DNA from: Bacteroidota bacterium
GTDB taxonomy: Bacteria; Bacteroidota; Bacteroidia; JABEUT01
DNA length: 43,266 bases
Reading direction: 5' to 3'
Assembly (NCBI GenBank): GCA_013289395.1
Contig: JABCZY010000006.1
Coordinates: 1-43,266, forward strand
Notes under the pieces: model-generated
The model's database searches: none
What the model saw: only the letters and a program-made list of their open reading frames with translations
Told to the model about the DNA's origin: nothing
Shown here: positions 4,524 to 20,579 of the stretch, piece after piece
Position numbering within the stretch: position 1 is the stretch's first letter
Layout: each line of letters opens with the position of its first letter
Position numbers and translations under genes: made by a program

Positions 4524-5783
4524 TTACCCGTTAGTTTTCACCATCAGGTTAACTTGTTCTATCCGGGTGGCAGACGATGAAAGAATTTTAATATGAAAAT
4601 CATTTATGGTAATAATTTCGTTTGTTTTGGGTATAGAACCTGTATTGTGTAAAATAAAACCACCCAATGTTTTATAGTCGCCCGAGCCGGGTATATTTAA
4701 ATGATATTTCTGATTCAGGTCGTCAATATCAAGCCTTGCTGAAAGTATATATTCATTAGGCCCGACCTGTTTTTCCATAAAGTCTTCTTTGTCGTATTCA
4801 TCATGTATCTCTCCGAATATTTTTTCGATAATATCTTCTGTAGTAAGCAGACCTGAATTCACACCAAACTCATCGACAATTACAGCCATGCTTTTATGTT
4901 GTTGCATAAATATACGCAATGCATCTTTTGCAGGCATTGATTCAGGTATGACCGGAGCCGGAAGCAATACCTTCTGTATGTCAGCAGCTTTCGAAAACAT
5001 TTCATGGTAATGCACATAGCCAACCACATTATCCATATTGCCACTGTAGATCAAAATGCGTGAAAGCCCGGTTTGCTGAAATTTTTCTTTCAGTTTAGCA
5101 AGGCCGTCATTTATATCAACTGCAATTGCATCAACCATAGGCACCATACAATCGCGCACTTTGGCATCGGGAAAACTAAGTGCATTGCGGAATATCTGTA
5201 CTTCATGTTCTACTTCCTGGGTATCGGTGGTTGCAGTAGTATGTTCCTGTATATAGCTATGCAGATCAGTTTTTGTAAAGCGGCTTTGGTAGCGAAACAC
5301 ATTTACCCTGCCAATGCGTTTCATTAAAAAATAAGCAATGTTAAGTACAACTGTTGTAAAGGGCAGAAGCATATAATATAATACCATGCTCGGGAATGAG
5401 AATAATTTAAGTATACGGTTTGGGTTCGAGCGGAAAATTGTTTTAGGAATGAAATCGGCCACAACTAAAATAACGCTTGTAGATACTATGGTTTGTATAG
5501 CAAGTATTTCAAATTGTGAATGAATATATCCATTCAGCATATTCTCCAACACATCTGACATAAAGATACTGAACACCACAATGGCAAGGGTATTGCCCAA
5601 TAAAAGCGTAGTAAGAAAACGAACAGGGCTTTGTGTAATGCGTGTAAAAACTCTTCCCGTCAGGCTTTCTTTCTGGCTTTCAATGCGTATTTGTAATTTA
5701 TTTGAAGATACATACGCTATTTCAAGACCCGAGAAGAAAAACGAGAACGAAAGTGAAATTAGTATGACGAAAAAAGTAATCAA
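4524..5783 (-). CDS. CNNM/CorC (HlyC) family transporter, second paralogue
   Basis: The 419-residue membrane protein has the CNNM layout. The N-terminal DUF21 helices carry FFSGLEIAYVSS (residues 16-27), which corresponds to SSSETALFS in the gldE paralogue. A CBS pair includes VDEFGVNSGLLTTEDIIEKI, and the C-terminal CorC_HlyC domain carries GDYKTLGGFILHNTGSIP. It likely acts in Mg2+/divalent cation handling at the inner membrane. Only 4 bases separate its ATG from the lptC stop, so it is the last gene of the coaX - outer-membrane protein - lptC - corC operon. It is clearly distinct in sequence from the other copy, so this is an old duplication. Confidence 0.88.
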   Translation of the reverse strand: MITFFVILISLSFSFFFSGLEIAYVSSNKLQIRIESQKESLTGRVFTRITQSPVRFLTTLLLGNTLAIVVFSIFMSDVLENMLNGYIHSQFEILAIQTIVSTSVILVVADFIPKTIFRSNPNRILKLFSFPSMVLYYMLLPFTTVVLNIAYFLMKRIGRVNVFRYQSRFTKTDLHSYIQEHTTATTDTQEVEHEVQIFRNALSFPDAKVRDCMVPMVDAIAVDINDGLAKLKEKFQQTGLSRILIYSGNMDNVVGYVHYHEMFSKAADIQKVLLPAPVIPESMPAKDALRIFMQQHKSMAVIVDEFGVNSGLLTTEDIIEKIFGEIHDEYDKEDFMEKQVGPNEYILSARLDIDDLNQKYHLNIPGSGDYKTLGGFILHNTGSIPKTNEIITINDFHIKILSSSATRIEQVNLMVKTNG

Positions 5784-5787
5784 GTGT

Positions 5788-6351
5788 CTATTTCTTTGTA
5801 TCGTTAAGCATTACGGTTCCGTGGAGCGAGGTAATCTTGTAGTCAGTAAAATCTTCGTTAGACTGCAGCCCATCGCCATCTAGTATTTCGGTTGCTGTAG
5901 TTATGGTAACTGCTTTATTTGTGTAAATAATATGTTTTGTTTCATCCCAATAAAGCTGTTCGGTATTCAGCCGCTCACCTTTTTTATTTACTACCACTAC
6001 ATTTCTGTCGGCTTCCATAAGCTTATTGTTCTTGTTATTATGCATTATGGCTGAGTCGGCTGTTACATGACTGCTTATATGCATAGAGTCGTCGTAAAAA
6101 TCTACTTTCATACCCTTGCGGAACAAGTCGTACGGATCTTTTCCTCCATAACTTTCAATAACCGGTGCTGTAAGCTTAAGTTTTGACCGGGCTGAATCGG
6201 TATAAAATATAGTGGCGTTATTCTCAACCAGTAATGGCGTATTATCTTCTGCTGTAATAAGGTCAACAGTTTTCATATTGTTTTCGCACGATACAACACC
6301 TAACAAGGAAATTAAAAGGAGCAATGTGTATGCAATGCGAAAGTGATTCAT
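5788..6351 (-). CDS. lptC: LptC, LPS export periplasmic protein (lipoprotein form)
   Basis: The 187-residue protein begins with a hydrophobic segment followed by VVSCEN, a lipobox whose Cys22 would be the lipidated residue. After it come the LptC features: a short N-terminal stretch, then the beta-jellyroll with NNATIFYTDSARSKLKLTAP, DDSMHISSHVTADSAIMHN and GERLNTEQLYWDETKHIIYT. LptC receives LPS from the LptBFG ATPase at the inner membrane and passes it to LptA. In E. coli LptC is anchored by a transmembrane helix; a lipoprotein anchor is the usual Bacteroidota form. It lies in a four-gene minus-strand run from coaX to corC. Confidence 0.88.
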   Translation of the reverse strand: MNHFRIAYTLLLLISLLGVVSCENNMKTVDLITAEDNTPLLVENNATIFYTDSARSKLKLTAPVIESYGGKDPYDLFRKGMKVDFYDDSMHISSHVTADSAIMHNNKNNKLMEADRNVVVVNKKGERLNTEQLYWDETKHIIYTNKAVTITTATEILDGDGLQSNEDFTDYKITSLHGTVMLNDTKK

Positions 6352-15226: not shown

Positions 15227-15724
15227 TCAGAAAAGATCAATGGCGATCTTCAACCACTCGGTAAATTCTTCGGGCTGTAGCTTTATTTCATTTTTTAATT
15301 CCCTAATTCCAACCCATCTGTATTCCGAGGCTTCTGAGAGGTTAAGGTTTGGTTGTCCATTATACCGCCCAATAAATACATGATCAAATTCGTGTTCTGT
15401 AAGGCCATTATCAAGTTTTGCCTGATATATAAAATCAAACCTTTTCTCCAGGTCTATATCAATACCCATTTCTTCTTTCAAACGGCGCTTGGCGGCATCA
15501 AGAGTATTTTCTTGTGGGTACGGGTGGCTGCAACAGGTATTGGTCCAAAGTTTTGCTGAGTGGTATTTATTGTTTGCTCTGCGCTGTAAAAGCAATTGCC
15601 CAGCATCGTTAAAAACAAAAACAGAAAATGCCCTGTGAAGCAGCCCCTTTTGGTGTACTTCAAGTTTATCCATACTACCAATGGGCTCATCTTTTTCGTT
15701 CACTAAAATAACATGGTCTTTCAT
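15227..15724 (-). CDS. idi: Isopentenyl-diphosphate delta-isomerase, type 1
   Basis: The 165-residue protein is a type 1 (Nudix-fold) IPP isomerase. It shows LLHRAFSVFVFNDAGQLLLQ (about 28-47), the active-site cysteine motif TCCSHP (Cys65), a Nudix-like helix NTLDAAKRRLKEEMG, and the metal/acid residues of LTEHEFDHVFIG (Glu110, Glu112). It converts IPP to DMAPP, the starter and prenyl donor for isoprenoids. It lies 17 bases after the flavoprotein gene as the last biosynthetic gene of the five-gene run that includes a UbiA prenyltransferase, which suggests it raises prenyl donor supply for that pathway. Confidence 0.92.
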   Translation of the reverse strand: MKDHVILVNEKDEPIGSMDKLEVHQKGLLHRAFSVFVFNDAGQLLLQRRANNKYHSAKLWTNTCCSHPYPQENTLDAAKRRLKEEMGIDIDLEKRFDFIYQAKLDNGLTEHEFDHVFIGRYNGQPNLNLSEASEYRWVGIRELKNEIKLQPEEFTEWLKIAIDLF

Positions 15725-15741
15725 TTCCCTCAGGTTATTTC

Positions 15742-16854
15742 TTAAAATGGTTTTCCATGTGTTTGTTTAATTACACCTTTTGCCAACGCAGGAAATACAT
15801 TAAAAAGATCGATAGTTCTCCTGGTTAAAAACGAATATTCAGAAAGCTTTTGCAGGTAACGGCTTAGCTTTATACGTGATGAAAATTCTTTTCTCCAGAA
15901 GCCTTGGTAATTATCAGCCAGCTCATGCTTCGTTATTTTACCTGAAAAATAGTGGTCTATAGTATCTGCTAATACGGAAGCCGACCTAAGCCCCATGCTC
16001 ATGCCATTACCTATAATAGGCGCCATGCTTCCCGCCGCATCACCCAAATAAAATGAATCATCTGTTACGGGTTCCTTAATAAGAAAGTTGATGCCACTTA
16101 CCGTGACAGGCTCATTAAAAACAAATTCAGCAGCGGTAAATATTTTTTTCAAGTTTTTATTTTTAAACAAATAGGTTTTTTCTAATTCAGGTATCGAGTT
16201 GTTTACCTTGTTCAGGTACTCTGAGTTGACTATATAACAAAGGCATGCCTTATCATCCTCAATGTTCGATATACCGCAATACCCACCAGGGAAATTATGT
16301 ATTTCAATTAAATCAGCATTTCGAGGAAGCTTTACATGATACTTAATACCCACATAGTTAGGGCCTTTATGCGCTTCAGTTTTGCCAGGAGTCCGTAGGT
16401 TCGATTTTCTGCCGGTGGCATTGCATAGCAATGATGCTGTTATGTCACCCTTATTTGTTTTAATAACATACTCTTCGCCAACGTTGTTAATATCCTGCGC
16501 TTTAGTGTTCAGCATAAATACAACTCCAAGTTTTTCGGCTTCTTTAAATAGCATGTCTTCTAACAGGTAACGGCTGATACCAAAACCACCAAGGTCGAGC
16601 TTTGTGGTAAACTCCTTGTTGTCGCCTGAAGTCAGTTTAAAATTACTAATGACTGGTAGCTTAAGTTCAGTTAACGCAGGGCAAACGCGTTGTAAGTAAG
16701 TATACGATTCCATGGAAATATACTCGCCACATACCTTATGCCTCGGGTAATTGCCCTTTTCAATTACTGCAACATTGTACCCACGCTTTTTAAGGTCAAT
16801 AGACAAAGGTAATCCCGCAATTCCGCCACCAATTATAGCTACATCGTACTTCAT
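15742..16854 (-). CDS. FAD-dependent oxidoreductase (geranylgeranyl-reductase-like)
   Basis: The 370-residue protein begins with the FAD-binding DVAIIGGGIAGLPLSIDLKK (GxGxxG) ending in the acidic residue of VIEKG, then PRHKVCGEYIS, a geranylgeranyl reductase/FixC-group marker. The second FAD motif GDAAGSMAPIIGNGMSMGLR lies about residue 270. Relatives either reduce prenyl chains or hydroxylate aromatic polyketides; SrsC of Streptomyces is a flavoprotein acting after a type III PKS. Its stop overlaps the ATG of the methyltransferase gene upstream in the ATGA manner (4 bases), so the two are translationally coupled. In this operon it could hydroxylate/oxidise the phenolic ring to a quinone or reduce the prenyl chain; the sequence does not decide. 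Confidence 0.82.
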   Translation of the reverse strand: MKYDVAIIGGGIAGLPLSIDLKKRGYNVAVIEKGNYPRHKVCGEYISMESYTYLQRVCPALTELKLPVISNFKLTSGDNKEFTTKLDLGGFGISRYLLEDMLFKEAEKLGVVFMLNTKAQDINNVGEEYVIKTNKGDITASLLCNATGRKSNLRTPGKTEAHKGPNYVGIKYHVKLPRNADLIEIHNFPGGYCGISNIEDDKACLCYIVNSEYLNKVNNSIPELEKTYLFKNKNLKKIFTAAEFVFNEPVTVSGINFLIKEPVTDDSFYLGDAAGSMAPIIGNGMSMGLRSASVLADTIDHYFSGKITKHELADNYQGFWRKEFSSRIKLSRYLQKLSEYSFLTRRTIDLFNVFPALAKGVIKQTHGKPF

Positions 16855-17549
16855 TCAGTGGCAATTACTATGTACCGGAAGGCCCAGCTCCATGTTACTG
16901 AATATTTTGTAAACCCGGCCTGTTTCAATAATTCTATCAGTTCTTTTCTCCTGAATCCTCGCTTTACTGAAAGTGGGGCGTCGTTCTTTACTAAATACGA
17001 TTTCGAAAAAAGGGCAGTAAGGAACTTGATACTATAATAGGCCAGCCAGTTGCGATGCAGATCGTTAGCCAGTATAATACAATTGTGGGCTTTACCAAAT
17101 TTAAATAAACCAATAATCTCTGCATCGGTAAGGTGATGCAAAAACAAACTGCAATGAATAACATCTATCTTATTAAGAAGCTCTGCCGATATGTTCCGGT
17201 AGTCGTCGCAAATAAGTTGTTTGTTGGTTAAGGCAACAAGGTTCTGTTCTGCATATTCTACGCAATCTCGTTTTAAGTCTACTCCGTAAAAAGACAAATC
17301 AGCATTTCTTTTATCAGAAAGCCGTGATAGCTGCTTGATAGAATCTCCACCGCCAAAGCCAATATCTAAAACATTGCGTACAGCTTTACCTTTGCCTAAA
17401 ATAGTTCCTAATCCTTTTAAAGAAGCATTGTATCCACCAAGGTATTTATTAATAATGTCTAATTCCACCAAATTGCGGTACAAGTCAGCTGTTGCAATAG
17501 AATCACCGTCGAGGTACTCCTTATCGTTCGATCTATGCTTCAACGACAT
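16851..17549 (-). CDS. SAM-dependent methyltransferase of the type III PKS cluster
   Basis: The 232-residue class I methyltransferase has motif I VLDIGFGGGDSIKQLS (about 66-81), an acidic residue at the end of strand 2 (GVDLKRD) and motif IV-like KIDVIHCSLFLHHL. The N-terminus RSNDKEYLDGD...LYRNLVELDIIN is typical of methyltransferases paired with type III PKS genes. It overlaps the PKS gene by 17 bases upstream and the flavoprotein gene by 4 bases downstream. In the Streptomyces srs and Bacillus bps systems, neighbouring methyltransferases act on polyketide phenols or pyrones; an O- or C-methylation of the PKS product is the natural inference. Confidence 0.82.
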   Translation of the reverse strand: MSLKHRSNDKEYLDGDSIATADLYRNLVELDIINKYLGGYNASLKGLGTILGKGKAVRNVLDIGFGGGDSIKQLSRLSDKRNADLSFYGVDLKRDCVEYAEQNLVALTNKQLICDDYRNISAELLNKIDVIHCSLFLHHLTDAEIIGLFKFGKAHNCIILANDLHRNWLAYYSIKFLTALFSKSYLVKNDAPLSVKRGFRRKELIELLKQAGFTKYSVTWSWAFRYIVIATE

Positions 17550-18681
17550 GATTACGGTTAGTATGATTAGGCTTATGTTGGGTGTTGGTATCTACCGATG
17601 AAAGACGCAGCATTTCAATATTAAGGCCGGGGCCGAAAGCGCAGGAAAATATATTCTTATTCTGCTGCTCATTCGCTTTTATTTTATTGAAGATACTGTC
17701 AAGTATAAAAAGAATAGTAGGCGAAGACATGTTACCATATTGCTCCAATATGCTCATCGAATCAGCCACATTATTATCTGTCAAATGCAGGCCCTCCTGA
17801 ACGGCTTCTACAATTTTTACTCCACCAGGGTGAATCGCCCAATAATCAGTTTCTGTTGAATGGTTTCCCAAAAAATTAGTTACGACCTCATGAATATTCT
17901 CTTTTATGGCCTCTACTACCTTTGGGCTCAAATGCATACGGAAAGCGGTGGAGCTAAGATTCCAGGTCATAAGGTCGGCGGTATGGGGAATAAATCCTGT
18001 ACCTAGATCATCGATCTGCAAAACCAATTTGTTTTCGGCCAACTTATTCTTGTTTCCACATATAACTACTGTTGATGCACCGTCGGCAAATAATAAATTG
18101 GCAATAATATCTTCCTCTTCAGCTGAAGGATAAAAATGCAATGAACAAAGCTCGGCACAAACAATTAAAACACATGCTTGTGCGTTCGATTGCGCAATGT
18201 AATGCGCCTGCTTAATAGCTTTTAAAGCAGCATAGCAGCCCAGAAAATTAACGGCAGATTTCTCGGTATGTTGCAGTCCGTATTGTTCGGCTATCATAAA
18301 CTCGAGCCCGGGAGCCATTAAACCTGTGCAACTTACGGTAATAAGATGTGTTATATCATCATGTTTAATATCCGATTGGGCAAATAATTTATCAATCGCA
18401 GCTGTTACCAGTGGCATAATTTTCTTCCGGTATAGCTCCATTCTTTTTTCTACCGGTTGTTTGAAATTATTATCAGTATAAAGCTCATACGCATCTCCTT
18501 TGTAATCGGGTAAACAACTGTAACGCGAATTGATCTTTGTTTTTTTATTTAAAAAATTCAGTTTCTTAACAAGATCATTTCCATCTCCTTCTGCAAAGGC
18601 CTGTGTATAAAATCGCATCAGGTCATTGCTTTCTATCTTATGTTCGGGTACAGCAGTTGATATGTTGAGTATGTATGACAT
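17533..18681 (-). CDS. Type III polyketide synthase (chalcone/stilbene synthase family)
   Basis: The 382-residue protein has the thiolase-fold triad: Cys149 in NFLGCYAALKA, His284 in YWAIHPGGVKI and Asn317 in EQYGNMSSPT. A late FSCAFGPGLNIEMLRL loop resembles the GFGPG loop. Length and motifs fit bacterial type III PKSs that extend an acyl-CoA with malonyl-CoA to make alkylresorcinols, alkylpyrones or other phenols. The starter is not readable; the early TVSCTGLMAPGLEF is conserved. It lies between a UbiA prenyltransferase (6-base gap) and a methyltransferase (17-base overlap), a tight operon. The C-terminal about 18 residues (NTQHKPNHTNRNHVVEA) are polar and lie in the overlap region. Confidence 0.92.
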   Translation of the reverse strand: MSYILNISTAVPEHKIESNDLMRFYTQAFAEGDGNDLVKKLNFLNKKTKINSRYSCLPDYKGDAYELYTDNNFKQPVEKRMELYRKKIMPLVTAAIDKLFAQSDIKHDDITHLITVSCTGLMAPGLEFMIAEQYGLQHTEKSAVNFLGCYAALKAIKQAHYIAQSNAQACVLIVCAELCSLHFYPSAEEEDIIANLLFADGASTVVICGNKNKLAENKLVLQIDDLGTGFIPHTADLMTWNLSSTAFRMHLSPKVVEAIKENIHEVVTNFLGNHSTETDYWAIHPGGVKIVEAVQEGLHLTDNNVADSMSILEQYGNMSSPTILFILDSIFNKIKANEQQNKNIFSCAFGPGLNIEMLRLSSVDTNTQHKPNHTNRNHVVEA

Positions 18682-18687
18682 GTGGGA

Positions 18688-19536
18688 TTATTTTAAAAGT
18701 AAAATGACAAAAAAGAGATTATTGAGCAAAGATGACATAACAAGCATGATCATGGTATTTTTAAAATTCACCTGCGCAACATTTTTGAAAGAGTGTAATG
18801 CCCACAACAAAAAATAGACTGTAGATGGTAGCATGATAATATTGAAGAGCCAGAAGTTGTTGATTTCGTTTTTATGGAACGACAGGTAAACGAATATATT
18901 GGCAATAGTGAACATGAGTGCTGAAAAAAGGAACGTGCCCTTTATGCCCAATAACATGCTTAATGTCTTCACGCCATCTTTACTATCTGACTCGTGCTGG
19001 TATATTTGAGTTAAGGGGTAAATGGTAGCGATAAAAAAGGATGAGGCAATGGCTGAAAACAATACAGATGGGTTTGAAAATAAAGTAGTAGATGATAAAG
19101 CAAAAATATTGGCGCAAAATATCCATGCACCCTGGAAGATAAAAACAACTAAAAAGCCAATAACCGGGAATTTTTTGAGGCGGATGCTCCTGTTACTATA
19201 AAGGCGGGAAGCAATTATATAACCAGCCACAAATAATGCAAAATATACATTAACCAAGAATGACAATGCTATAGCTACACTGTCCATAATTGTTGATACA
19301 TACAGGAGCAATTTTGTTGGTTTGGGTGGCGAGGCCAAGCCTCCAATTGGGCCTTCATCCCTGTCATTGTAGCTATTGTATCCATTACTGGATGGGAATA
19401 CCAGCAAATGCCAAATGGCTATAACCAGGATAAATTGATAAGTAATTGCCGGATGAATGTAGAAAAAGGAAAATAAAGAAACTGGCAATAAGAATATTGA
19501 AAATGGAAATCGCAGAAGTTTAACTGTGTCTTTCAT
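18688..19536 (-). CDS. UbiA-family prenyltransferase
   Basis: The 282-residue integral membrane protein has about eight hydrophobic helices and the two Asp-rich motifs expected of UbiA enzymes, in altered form: NSYNDRDEGP (about 54-63, for NxxxDxxxD) and ESDSKDGVKTL (about 188-198, for DxxxDxxxG). Family members attach a prenyl group from a prenyl diphosphate to an aromatic or other acceptor at the membrane. As first gene of the operon with a type III PKS and IPP isomerase, the acceptor is plausibly the PKS product. The motifs are divergent, so an altered substrate or function is possible. A promoter lies at 19626-19654. Confidence 0.8.
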   Translation of the reverse strand: MKDTVKLLRFPFSIFLLPVSLFSFFYIHPAITYQFILVIAIWHLLVFPSSNGYNSYNDRDEGPIGGLASPPKPTKLLLYVSTIMDSVAIALSFLVNVYFALFVAGYIIASRLYSNRSIRLKKFPVIGFLVVFIFQGAWIFCANIFALSSTTLFSNPSVLFSAIASSFFIATIYPLTQIYQHESDSKDGVKTLSMLLGIKGTFLFSALMFTIANIFVYLSFHKNEINNFWLFNIIMLPSTVYFLLWALHSFKNVAQVNFKNTMIMLVMSSLLNNLFFVILLLK

Positions 19537-19655: not shown

Positions 19656-20189
19656 TTATTGTTTTGTAACCGGCACTTCGAGATATACAGTAACCTTCTT
19701 ACTTGAATCATTCACAGTATAGTCGTGAGAATCCATAGTAAACTGACCTTTAAAAACAGCACCCGTGCTTGTCCTTGTAAAAGTGAAAGGTATTTCTATT
19801 GTCTTGGTTACTGTTTTTATAGTTAAATCTCCTGTAACAATATAGCCCGATGGTGCTTTCTTGATTTGTTTGGATTTAAAGAAGATAAGGGGGTATTTAG
19901 ATGTATTGAAAAACTCTTCTTTCTCCCGCAAGTGTGTGTTCCGTAATGAAATACCGGTTGATATGGTATTAGGGTTTAAAGTAACCACCATTGAACTTGA
20001 TTCAGCCTTATTTGAATCAAATACTATAACAGCTTTTATGCCGCCAAGGTTTCCATCTACTTCTCCTAAAGGGCCACTGGTTACAAATTTTATTGTCGTT
20101 TTGGCAGTATCTACCTTCCAGCTAATAGACTGAGTAACCCCAGCAATGGTCAATAACATTAAGAGAACAAAAGCCAATCTCTTTTTCAT
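19656..20189 (-). CDS. YceI-family (polyisoprenoid-binding-like) periplasmic protein
   Basis: The 177-residue protein has a signal peptide (MKKRLAFVLLMLLTIAGVTQ). The YceI lipocalin-like fold follows: WKVDTAKTTIKFVTSGPLGEVDGNL, then RNTHLREKEEFFNTSKYPLI and the middle TGDLTIKTVTKTIEIPF. Characterised family members (E. coli YceI, Thermus TT1927b) bind isoprenoid quinones or polyprenyl compounds in a hydrophobic pocket. It follows doxX (27-base gap) and directly precedes the promoter of an operon with UbiA, type III PKS and Idi. A role in carrying the hydrophobic product is therefore attractive but inferred from neighbourhood. Confidence 0.88.
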   Translation of the reverse strand: MKKRLAFVLLMLLTIAGVTQSISWKVDTAKTTIKFVTSGPLGEVDGNLGGIKAVIVFDSNKAESSSMVVTLNPNTISTGISLRNTHLREKEEFFNTSKYPLIFFKSKQIKKAPSGYIVTGDLTIKTVTKTIEIPFTFTRTSTGAVFKGQFTMDSHDYTVNDSSKKVTVYLEVPVTKQ

Positions 20190-20216: not shown

Positions 20217-20579
20217 TTAAATACCTCTGGCATAAGCCACAAACAGAGCCATAAGCAAAAACAATACATTTATAATTGCGTGCTGGTATTCTTTACGTCT
20301 GATGTGAACGTTTACTGAACCTGTCATTATCAATGCAATACAGGCAGCACCTATAAAAGTTAGGTAATGCCCATGCCCCAATAACCTGGGCACTATAACC
20401 AAAATTCCACTGATAAGTTCTGCCCCGGCAATTGTTTTAATTATTATCGGTTCAAAATCTTCGGCCCATGTACCACCACTTGCAATAATTTTTTCTTTGG
20501 TTTGAAAGAATTTAAAACTGCCCGTCATTACAAAGATTAATCCCAGTAAGCCCTCTACAATCCAAAGTGCTATTACCAT
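20217..20579 (-). CDS. DoxX-like four-helix membrane protein
   Basis: The 120-residue protein has four predicted membrane helices. The N-terminal helix reads WIVEGLLGLIFVMTGSFKFF, typical of DoxX/DoxD-like proteins, followed by AGAELISGILVIVPRL, also characteristic. The name comes from archaeal thiosulfate:quinone oxidoreductase subunits; most bacterial members are uncharacterised. It is the first gene of a doxX-yceI pair. TACATTTG on the minus strand (20606-20599) is a candidate -7 element 19 bases before its ATG, with no TTG at the right spacing. It is divergent from the lipid kinase gene. Confidence 0.75.
   Translation of the reverse strand: MVIALWIVEGLLGLIFVMTGSFKFFQTKEKIIASGGTWAEDFEPIIIKTIAGAELISGILVIVPRLLGHGHYLTFIGAACIALIMTGSVNVHIRRKEYQHAIINVLFLLMALFVAYARGI

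Follow-up and report, generated by a model that had tools for sequence, protein, structure and literature searches.

The contig JABCZY010000006.1, which at 43,266 bases is the whole stretch of DNA analysed here (the window, C6 among the contigs of a 52% complete Bacteroidota genome), carries on its minus strand a real and conserved biosynthetic operon in which a UbiA-superfamily membrane prenyltransferase is encoded next to a type III polyketide synthase (PKS), followed by a methyltransferase (MT) and a flavoprotein. In the probable pathway the PKS makes an aromatic ring, which is methylated, hydroxylated and prenylated at the membrane, leading to a prenylated phenolic lipid (meroterpenoid) of the methoxy-(hydro)quinone type. 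The first-pass annotation had described five minus-strand genes that overlap or abut, and all five open reading frames (ORFs) were found at those positions, with every family confirmed by Pfam/NCBIfam:

18688..19536, minus strand: UbiA-superfamily membrane prenyltransferase, 282 aa (PF01040, AlphaFold, Foldseek, motifs in 88 homologues, profile alignment to 4od4)
17533..18681, minus strand: type III PKS, 382 aa (PF00195/PF02797, triad, cavity residues, nearest solved structures)
16851..17549, minus strand: class-I S-adenosylmethionine MT, 232 aa (Pfam/NCBIfam; a relative of PRK06202 and distantly of UbiG)
15742..16854, minus strand: FAD-dependent oxidoreductase of GR2/PHBH fold, 370 aa, a predicted ring hydroxylase (Pfam/NCBIfam, AlphaFold, Foldseek, slot replacement)
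15227..15724, minus strand: type 1 isopentenyl-diphosphate isomerase Idi, 165 aa, an optional cluster member (TIGR02150; presence/absence in the genus)

UbiA and PKS are separated by 6 nt, PKS and MT overlap by 17 nt, MT and flavoprotein overlap by 4 nt, and a gap of 17 nt precedes Idi.

The pathway is common, as a scan of public genomes with an alignment of the cluster UbiA placed its family at at least 588 confirmed places, and the best 80 loci were examined for their neighbours. In 79 of these 80 the PKS stood beside UbiA or shared an ORF with it, and most of them continue with the MT and the flavoprotein in the same order, so that the search for this gene order suggested in the first-pass annotation found the set conserved together. 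The sole locus among the 80 with no adjoining PKS was L120 (UbiA 5177-6133). Carriers among the 80 include Chitinophagaceae (Niastella, Paraflavitalea, Flavisolibacter, Ginsengibacter), Dyadobacter, Emticicia and metagenome-assembled genomes of Spirosoma, Fluviicola and Mariniphaga. One locus, labelled Candidatus Sericytochromatia, carries a Bacteroidota-like cluster and reflects either contamination or transfer (L079), and a 31.7 kb contig (CAIRRW010000513.1) holds two diverged UbiA-PKS-MT-flavoprotein clusters ~22 kb apart, one near that of the window and the other near L027 (L046 and L094).

Co-inheritance was examined in a phylum sample of 395 genomes (UbiA family at E <= 1e-30, PKS at E < 1e-100). 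The PKS was present in each of the 60 genomes that had this UbiA family, against 100 of the 395 overall (Fisher p = 2e-44, a value which ignores relatedness); 34 of the 60 belong to one family (f66), whose UbiA is more distant and unlinked to the PKS. In the window's own class a strong UbiA was present in 23 genomes and a strong PKS in the identical 23, and of the 26 genomes with a strong UbiA, 20 had it no more than about 250 bp away from the PKS. On the PKS tree, which was obtained by a quick search and has some long branches, two changes of the UbiA label suffice. The cluster is patchy within the genus, as expected for an accessory pathway.

The two enzymes are also joined physically. Nine of ten Dyadobacter loci encode UbiA and PKS as one polypeptide of 652-654 aa, the two parts following each other almost without a linker, and both Pfam domains were complete in the three fused ORFs examined. 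A sequencing error is a very unlikely source of the fusion because the nine records come from different species. Co-conservation and natural fusion show that UbiA and PKS work as a pair, and the fusion gives the strongest indication here that this UbiA uses the PKS product as its acceptor. The 79 of 80 adjacency, the complete co-occurrence and the fusion led us to reject the view that the two are chance neighbours. Direct transfer from a PKS to a prenyltransferase is of interest for engineered cannabinoid-type pathways, and the natural fusion offers a ready model for such a handover between a soluble PKS and a prenyltransferase in the membrane.

Gene content, the intact PKS triad, the co-inheritance and fusion of UbiA with PKS, and the occurrence of a ring hydroxylase in the flavoprotein's place were all observed directly, and a plausible route can be drawn from them. 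The type III PKS would condense a starter bound to coenzyme A (CoA) or acyl carrier protein with malonyl units and cyclise the chain to a resorcinol-type ring, which the class-I MT would methylate and the flavoprotein would hydroxylate, giving a hydroquinone/quinone-type headgroup. UbiA, working at the membrane, would move a prenyl group onto the phenol and would probably receive the polyketide straight from the PKS, and Idi would raise the dimethylallyl diphosphate (DMAPP) share of the pool derived from the methylerythritol phosphate (MEP) pathway. The co-conservation, the fusion and the ring-hydroxylase swap speak for the prenylated, methylated and oxidised phenolic polyketide that had been predicted earlier, while the quinone end state is a part that we infer, along with the order of the steps, the starter, the prenyl length, C- versus O-prenylation and the biological role. 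On this reading, Bacteroidota are predicted to make a class of compounds that serve as membrane lipids or signals.

Several observations weigh against this proposal. UbiA and PKS are non-adjacent in six of the 26 sampled genomes with a strong UbiA; each canonical motif of the cluster UbiA is one Asp short; the best model for the flavoprotein is that of a geranylgeranyl reductase (GGR; TIGR02032, 94.2 bits, under the cut-off of 158.8); and its Foldseek template-modelling (TM) scores reach 0.78-0.79 for hydroxylases and reductases alike, so that the fold does not separate them.

The cluster UbiA passes PF01040 (64.6 bits against a cut-off of 34.2), its AlphaFold model is confident (pLDDT 95.6) and its nearest solved folds are archaeal UbiA homologues (Foldseek, 4tq4, TM 0.72). 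A PDB sequence search with a 10-row UbiA profile gave no match, and a 39-row profile gave weak matches to DGGGP synthase and ApUbiA. Among 88 homologues N51, N54, S55, D58, D60, Q177, Q180 and D184 are invariant. Canonical UbiA aromatic prenyltransferases carry complete NxxxDxxxD and DxxxD motifs, which this protein lacks. When aligned to Aeropyrum pernix UbiA (4od4), its first motif reads N54xxxD58xD60, with the final Asp of NxxxDxxxD absent, and its second reads Q180xxxD184, with Gln in place of the first Asp of DxxxD in 88 of 88 homologues. The protein is a variant within the UbiA superfamily and not a canonical member, and its activity is not to be assumed since an Asp is missing from each motif. 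The distant UbiA proteins of f66 carry the same Gln, and its distribution points to a clade-wide variant rather than decay. The variant puts to test whether the Asp-rich motifs are essential. In the f66 loci (L166-L173, L176) the distant Gln-motif UbiA lies away from the PKS, and a Thioredoxin_9 gene adjoins it in the checked neighbours L166, L168, L170 and L171. The cluster UbiA had no match among 72,556 plasmid records searched for plasmid carriage.

A second UbiA protein of the same genome, on contig C62, has the canonical motifs NDYGDAVKGTD and RDIDND and by these looks like MenA. With that protein in the genome, the idea that the cluster UbiA is the genome's MenA is disfavoured. An additional partial UbiA-superfamily ORF with the motif RDMSHD lies at the end of contig C95 (L174).

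Two further genes stand upstream of UbiA on the same strand:

19656..20189, minus strand: YceI-family protein, 177 aa, a possible companion (lipid/isoprenoid carrier; PF04264, 94.6 bits; mild enrichment beside the cluster)
20217..20579, minus strand: DoxX_2 membrane protein, 120 aa, a possible but unproven companion (PF13564, 64.4 bits)

YceI lies 119 bp upstream of UbiA and DoxX 27 bp upstream of YceI. YceI is mildly enriched near the cluster (6 cases against 1.0 expected, p about 0.007). In L026, L029, L077 and L098 the cluster adjoins a small ORF, of the same family in all four, the L026 copy being a DM13 electron-transfer domain protein, and YceI is also found in three of these loci.

These neighbours bear on whether the lipid is a true redox-active prenylated polyketide benzoquinone that carries electrons in the membrane or works as an antioxidant, which would be one particular form of the proposed prenylated lipid. 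The combination of UbiA, methylation and hydroxylation resembles the logic of ubiquinone synthesis, the MT is weakly similar to UbiG, and the neighbours speak for it too, namely the enriched YceI, DoxX and, at some loci, a DM13 protein or a di-haem peroxidase. The association with YceI is modest, however, the cluster is patchy within one genus, and the MenA-like UbiA elsewhere in the genome implies that the respiratory quinone is presumably menaquinone, so we regard the redox carrier as conceivable but on balance unlikely. A broader picture is held in slightly lower regard and offered as a speculation: a phylum-wide, undescribed polyketide prenyl (hydro)quinone lipid, made by a PKS that would hand its product to a UbiA of altered metal site (Gln for Asp), might have an auxiliary redox or protective function in the membrane, with YceI carrying it.

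The role of the flavoprotein decides between the hydroxylated ring of the proposed lipid and a different product. The protein is a GR2/PHBH-type FAD protein by Pfam/NCBIfam, and it might be a prenyl-chain reductase (GGR/MenJ-like) that yields a reduced-prenyl phenolic lipid and not a quinone. TIGR02032 is the best NCBIfam match of the window protein and is matched by all 37 family members, GGR structures are among its Foldseek matches, and an analogous dihydrogeranyl group is borne by the agq product of Actinoplanes missouriensis (PMC3569393). The AlphaFold model (pLDDT 90), on the other hand, has phenol-acting flavin halogenases and monooxygenases as its top Foldseek matches with the GG reductases close behind, and an outright assignment as GG reductase was rejected on the score below the TIGR02032 cut-off, the fold comparison favouring neither class. 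The genomic evidence is more telling. Seven loci with no flavoprotein carry instead an aromatic-ring hydroxylase of ~540 aa (PF01494 + Rng_hyd_C), directly after the MT in five of the seven and a few genes later in two, and because this enzyme takes the flavoprotein's slot the oxidation most likely acts on the phenolic ring. The flavoprotein family also occurs with PKS and MT but with no UbiA in loci that we call Flavobacteriaceae-type, a label inferred from the group code f49, which makes the ring a more likely substrate than the prenyl chain. A prenyl reductase is therefore rather improbable, and ring hydroxylation is retained in the proposed pathway. The MT matches the class-I models Methyltransf_25/11/12 (Pfam), in addition to its weak UbiG similarity. 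A predicted membrane protein of ~155 aa is repeatedly encoded just after the flavoprotein or the hydroxylase (L025, L046, L048, L050, L051, L053, L107 and L112), the L046 copy of which has no Pfam match.

Trios of PKS, MT and flavoprotein lacking UbiA are frequent among other Bacteroidota and have been described from planctomycetes and cyanobacteria (PMC10896814, PMC8086630), yet a non-prenylated alkylresorcinol or alkylquinone pathway like srs or hid, with UbiA as a mere neighbour, is very improbable given the co-occurrence of UbiA with the PKS in all 60 genomes and the fusion of the two.

The PKS passes both Chal_sti_synt domains (PF00195/PF02797), and the Cys149-His284-Asn317 triad named in the first-pass annotation is intact, the residues standing at these exact native positions and being conserved without change in 95 UbiA-associated PKSs. 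No other PKS of this type was found in the incomplete source genome. The cavity residues C179, H182, W240, F247 and M249 are kept almost without exception in UbiA-linked PKSs and are mostly not kept in Flavobacteriaceae-type ones. W240 and H182, which we take from alignments to be G256 and T197 of chalcone synthase (CHS), would shrink a CHS-type cavity. The nearest solved structures by profile were Steely1, PKS18 and Ectocarpus PKS1, and Steely1, the same enzyme as SteelyA, has His and Trp at the positions of H182 and W240. As SteelyA makes the pentyl-bearing MPBD (PMC4164351) while sharing these residues, chain length could not be called from the cavity, and a call of starter or chain length was dropped.

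In plant cannabinoid and related meroterpenoid pathways a UbiA-superfamily membrane enzyme prenylates a type III PKS product, as is proposed here, but those pathways use separate genes and other tailoring and have no known relation of descent to the window cluster. By analogy of enzyme classes, the nearest solved example is agqA-D of Actinoplanes missouriensis. It comprises four genes (PMC7692728), among them AgqA, a type III PKS (PMC10896814), and a UbiA-related membrane enzyme that O-prenylates the polyketide (PMC4044012), with 6-alkyl-4-O-dihydrogeranyl-2-methoxyhydroquinones as products (PMC3569393). The likeness, a type III PKS and three tailoring genes encoded together for a product that is methylated, hydroxylated and prenylated, is drawn at the level of enzyme classes, and agq belongs to another phylum. 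The remaining two agq genes were reportedly identified by Awakawa in 2011 as a methyltransferase and a flavoprotein. We know of no Idi, YceI or fusion in agq.

Other known clusters are more distant. The srsABC genes of Streptomyces griseus encode a PKS, a methyltransferase and a monooxygenase that modify alkylresorcinols, but there is no UbiA and SrsB is an isoprenylcysteine-carboxyl-type methyltransferase (PMC6669644) whereas the window MT is of class I, which leaves the parallel drawn earlier a loose one. The hidABC cluster for hierridin in cyanobacteria and the MT-oxidoreductase-PKS operons of planctomycetes likewise hold PKS, MT and oxidoreductase in one operon, with an alkylresorcinol product shown (PMC10896814, PMC8086630), but UbiA is absent as a rule, one Raphidiopsis cluster having a prenyltransferase gene (PMC8086630). 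The los locus of Micromonospora endolithica (loseolamycin) brings together UbiA, methyltransferase and type III PKS genes but has an acyl-CoA dehydrogenase between them, and the title of the paper on it calls its products alkylresorcinols (PMC7587189).

The first-pass annotation knew of no characterised product of this layout in Bacteroidota and named a published pathway with the same gene set and a known product as refuting evidence. In the literature searched, which lies mostly outside subscription journals and is thus weak evidence of absence, no pathway with type III PKS and UbiA was found in Bacteroidota, so the claim stands for this phylum, but outside it agqA-D answers part of that refuting condition, at the level of gene classes (PMC7692728, PMC3569393, PMC4044012). 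The novelty claim is hence weaker than first stated, as pathways of this kind have been described in actinomycetes. New as far as searched are the occurrence of the pathway across Bacteroidota, the joining of UbiA and PKS in one protein, the hydroxylase in the flavoprotein's slot and the Gln-for-Asp variant of UbiA.

Idi passes both TIGR02150 (137.5 against a cut-off of 105.8) and NF002995 (172.3 against 127). The MEP pathway yields both isopentenyl diphosphate and DMAPP, which makes Idi dispensable, and its location beside the cluster suggests a supply role. The alternative of a housekeeping gene parked at the cluster is disfavoured, as DXR of the MEP pathway was present in 8 of 11 genus genomes against 4 of 11 for Idi, and a 99% complete member of the genus (G006) has DXR with no Idi found. 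Of the 80 loci, 13 have Idi no further than 1.5 kb from the cluster; 10 of these 13 are Dyadobacter, hence not independent. The five-gene unit proposed at first, with Idi as donor supply, is therefore kept as regards the supply role, which fits with the MEP pathway being present, but Idi is only sometimes in the cluster, and what is conserved as a unit is the quartet UbiA-PKS-MT-flavoprotein.

The single promoter proposed for the five genes was not borne out, since a promoter and terminator scan of the locus found sigma-70 sites no more numerous than in shuffles. Upstream of UbiA, TAACTTTG (window 19633-19626, minus strand) is a candidate for the Bacteroidota -7 box, whose consensus is TANNTTTG, and has an imperfect -33 box. 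Because YceI and DoxX precede UbiA in the same orientation, transcription may start further upstream at YceI/DoxX and take in more than the five genes.

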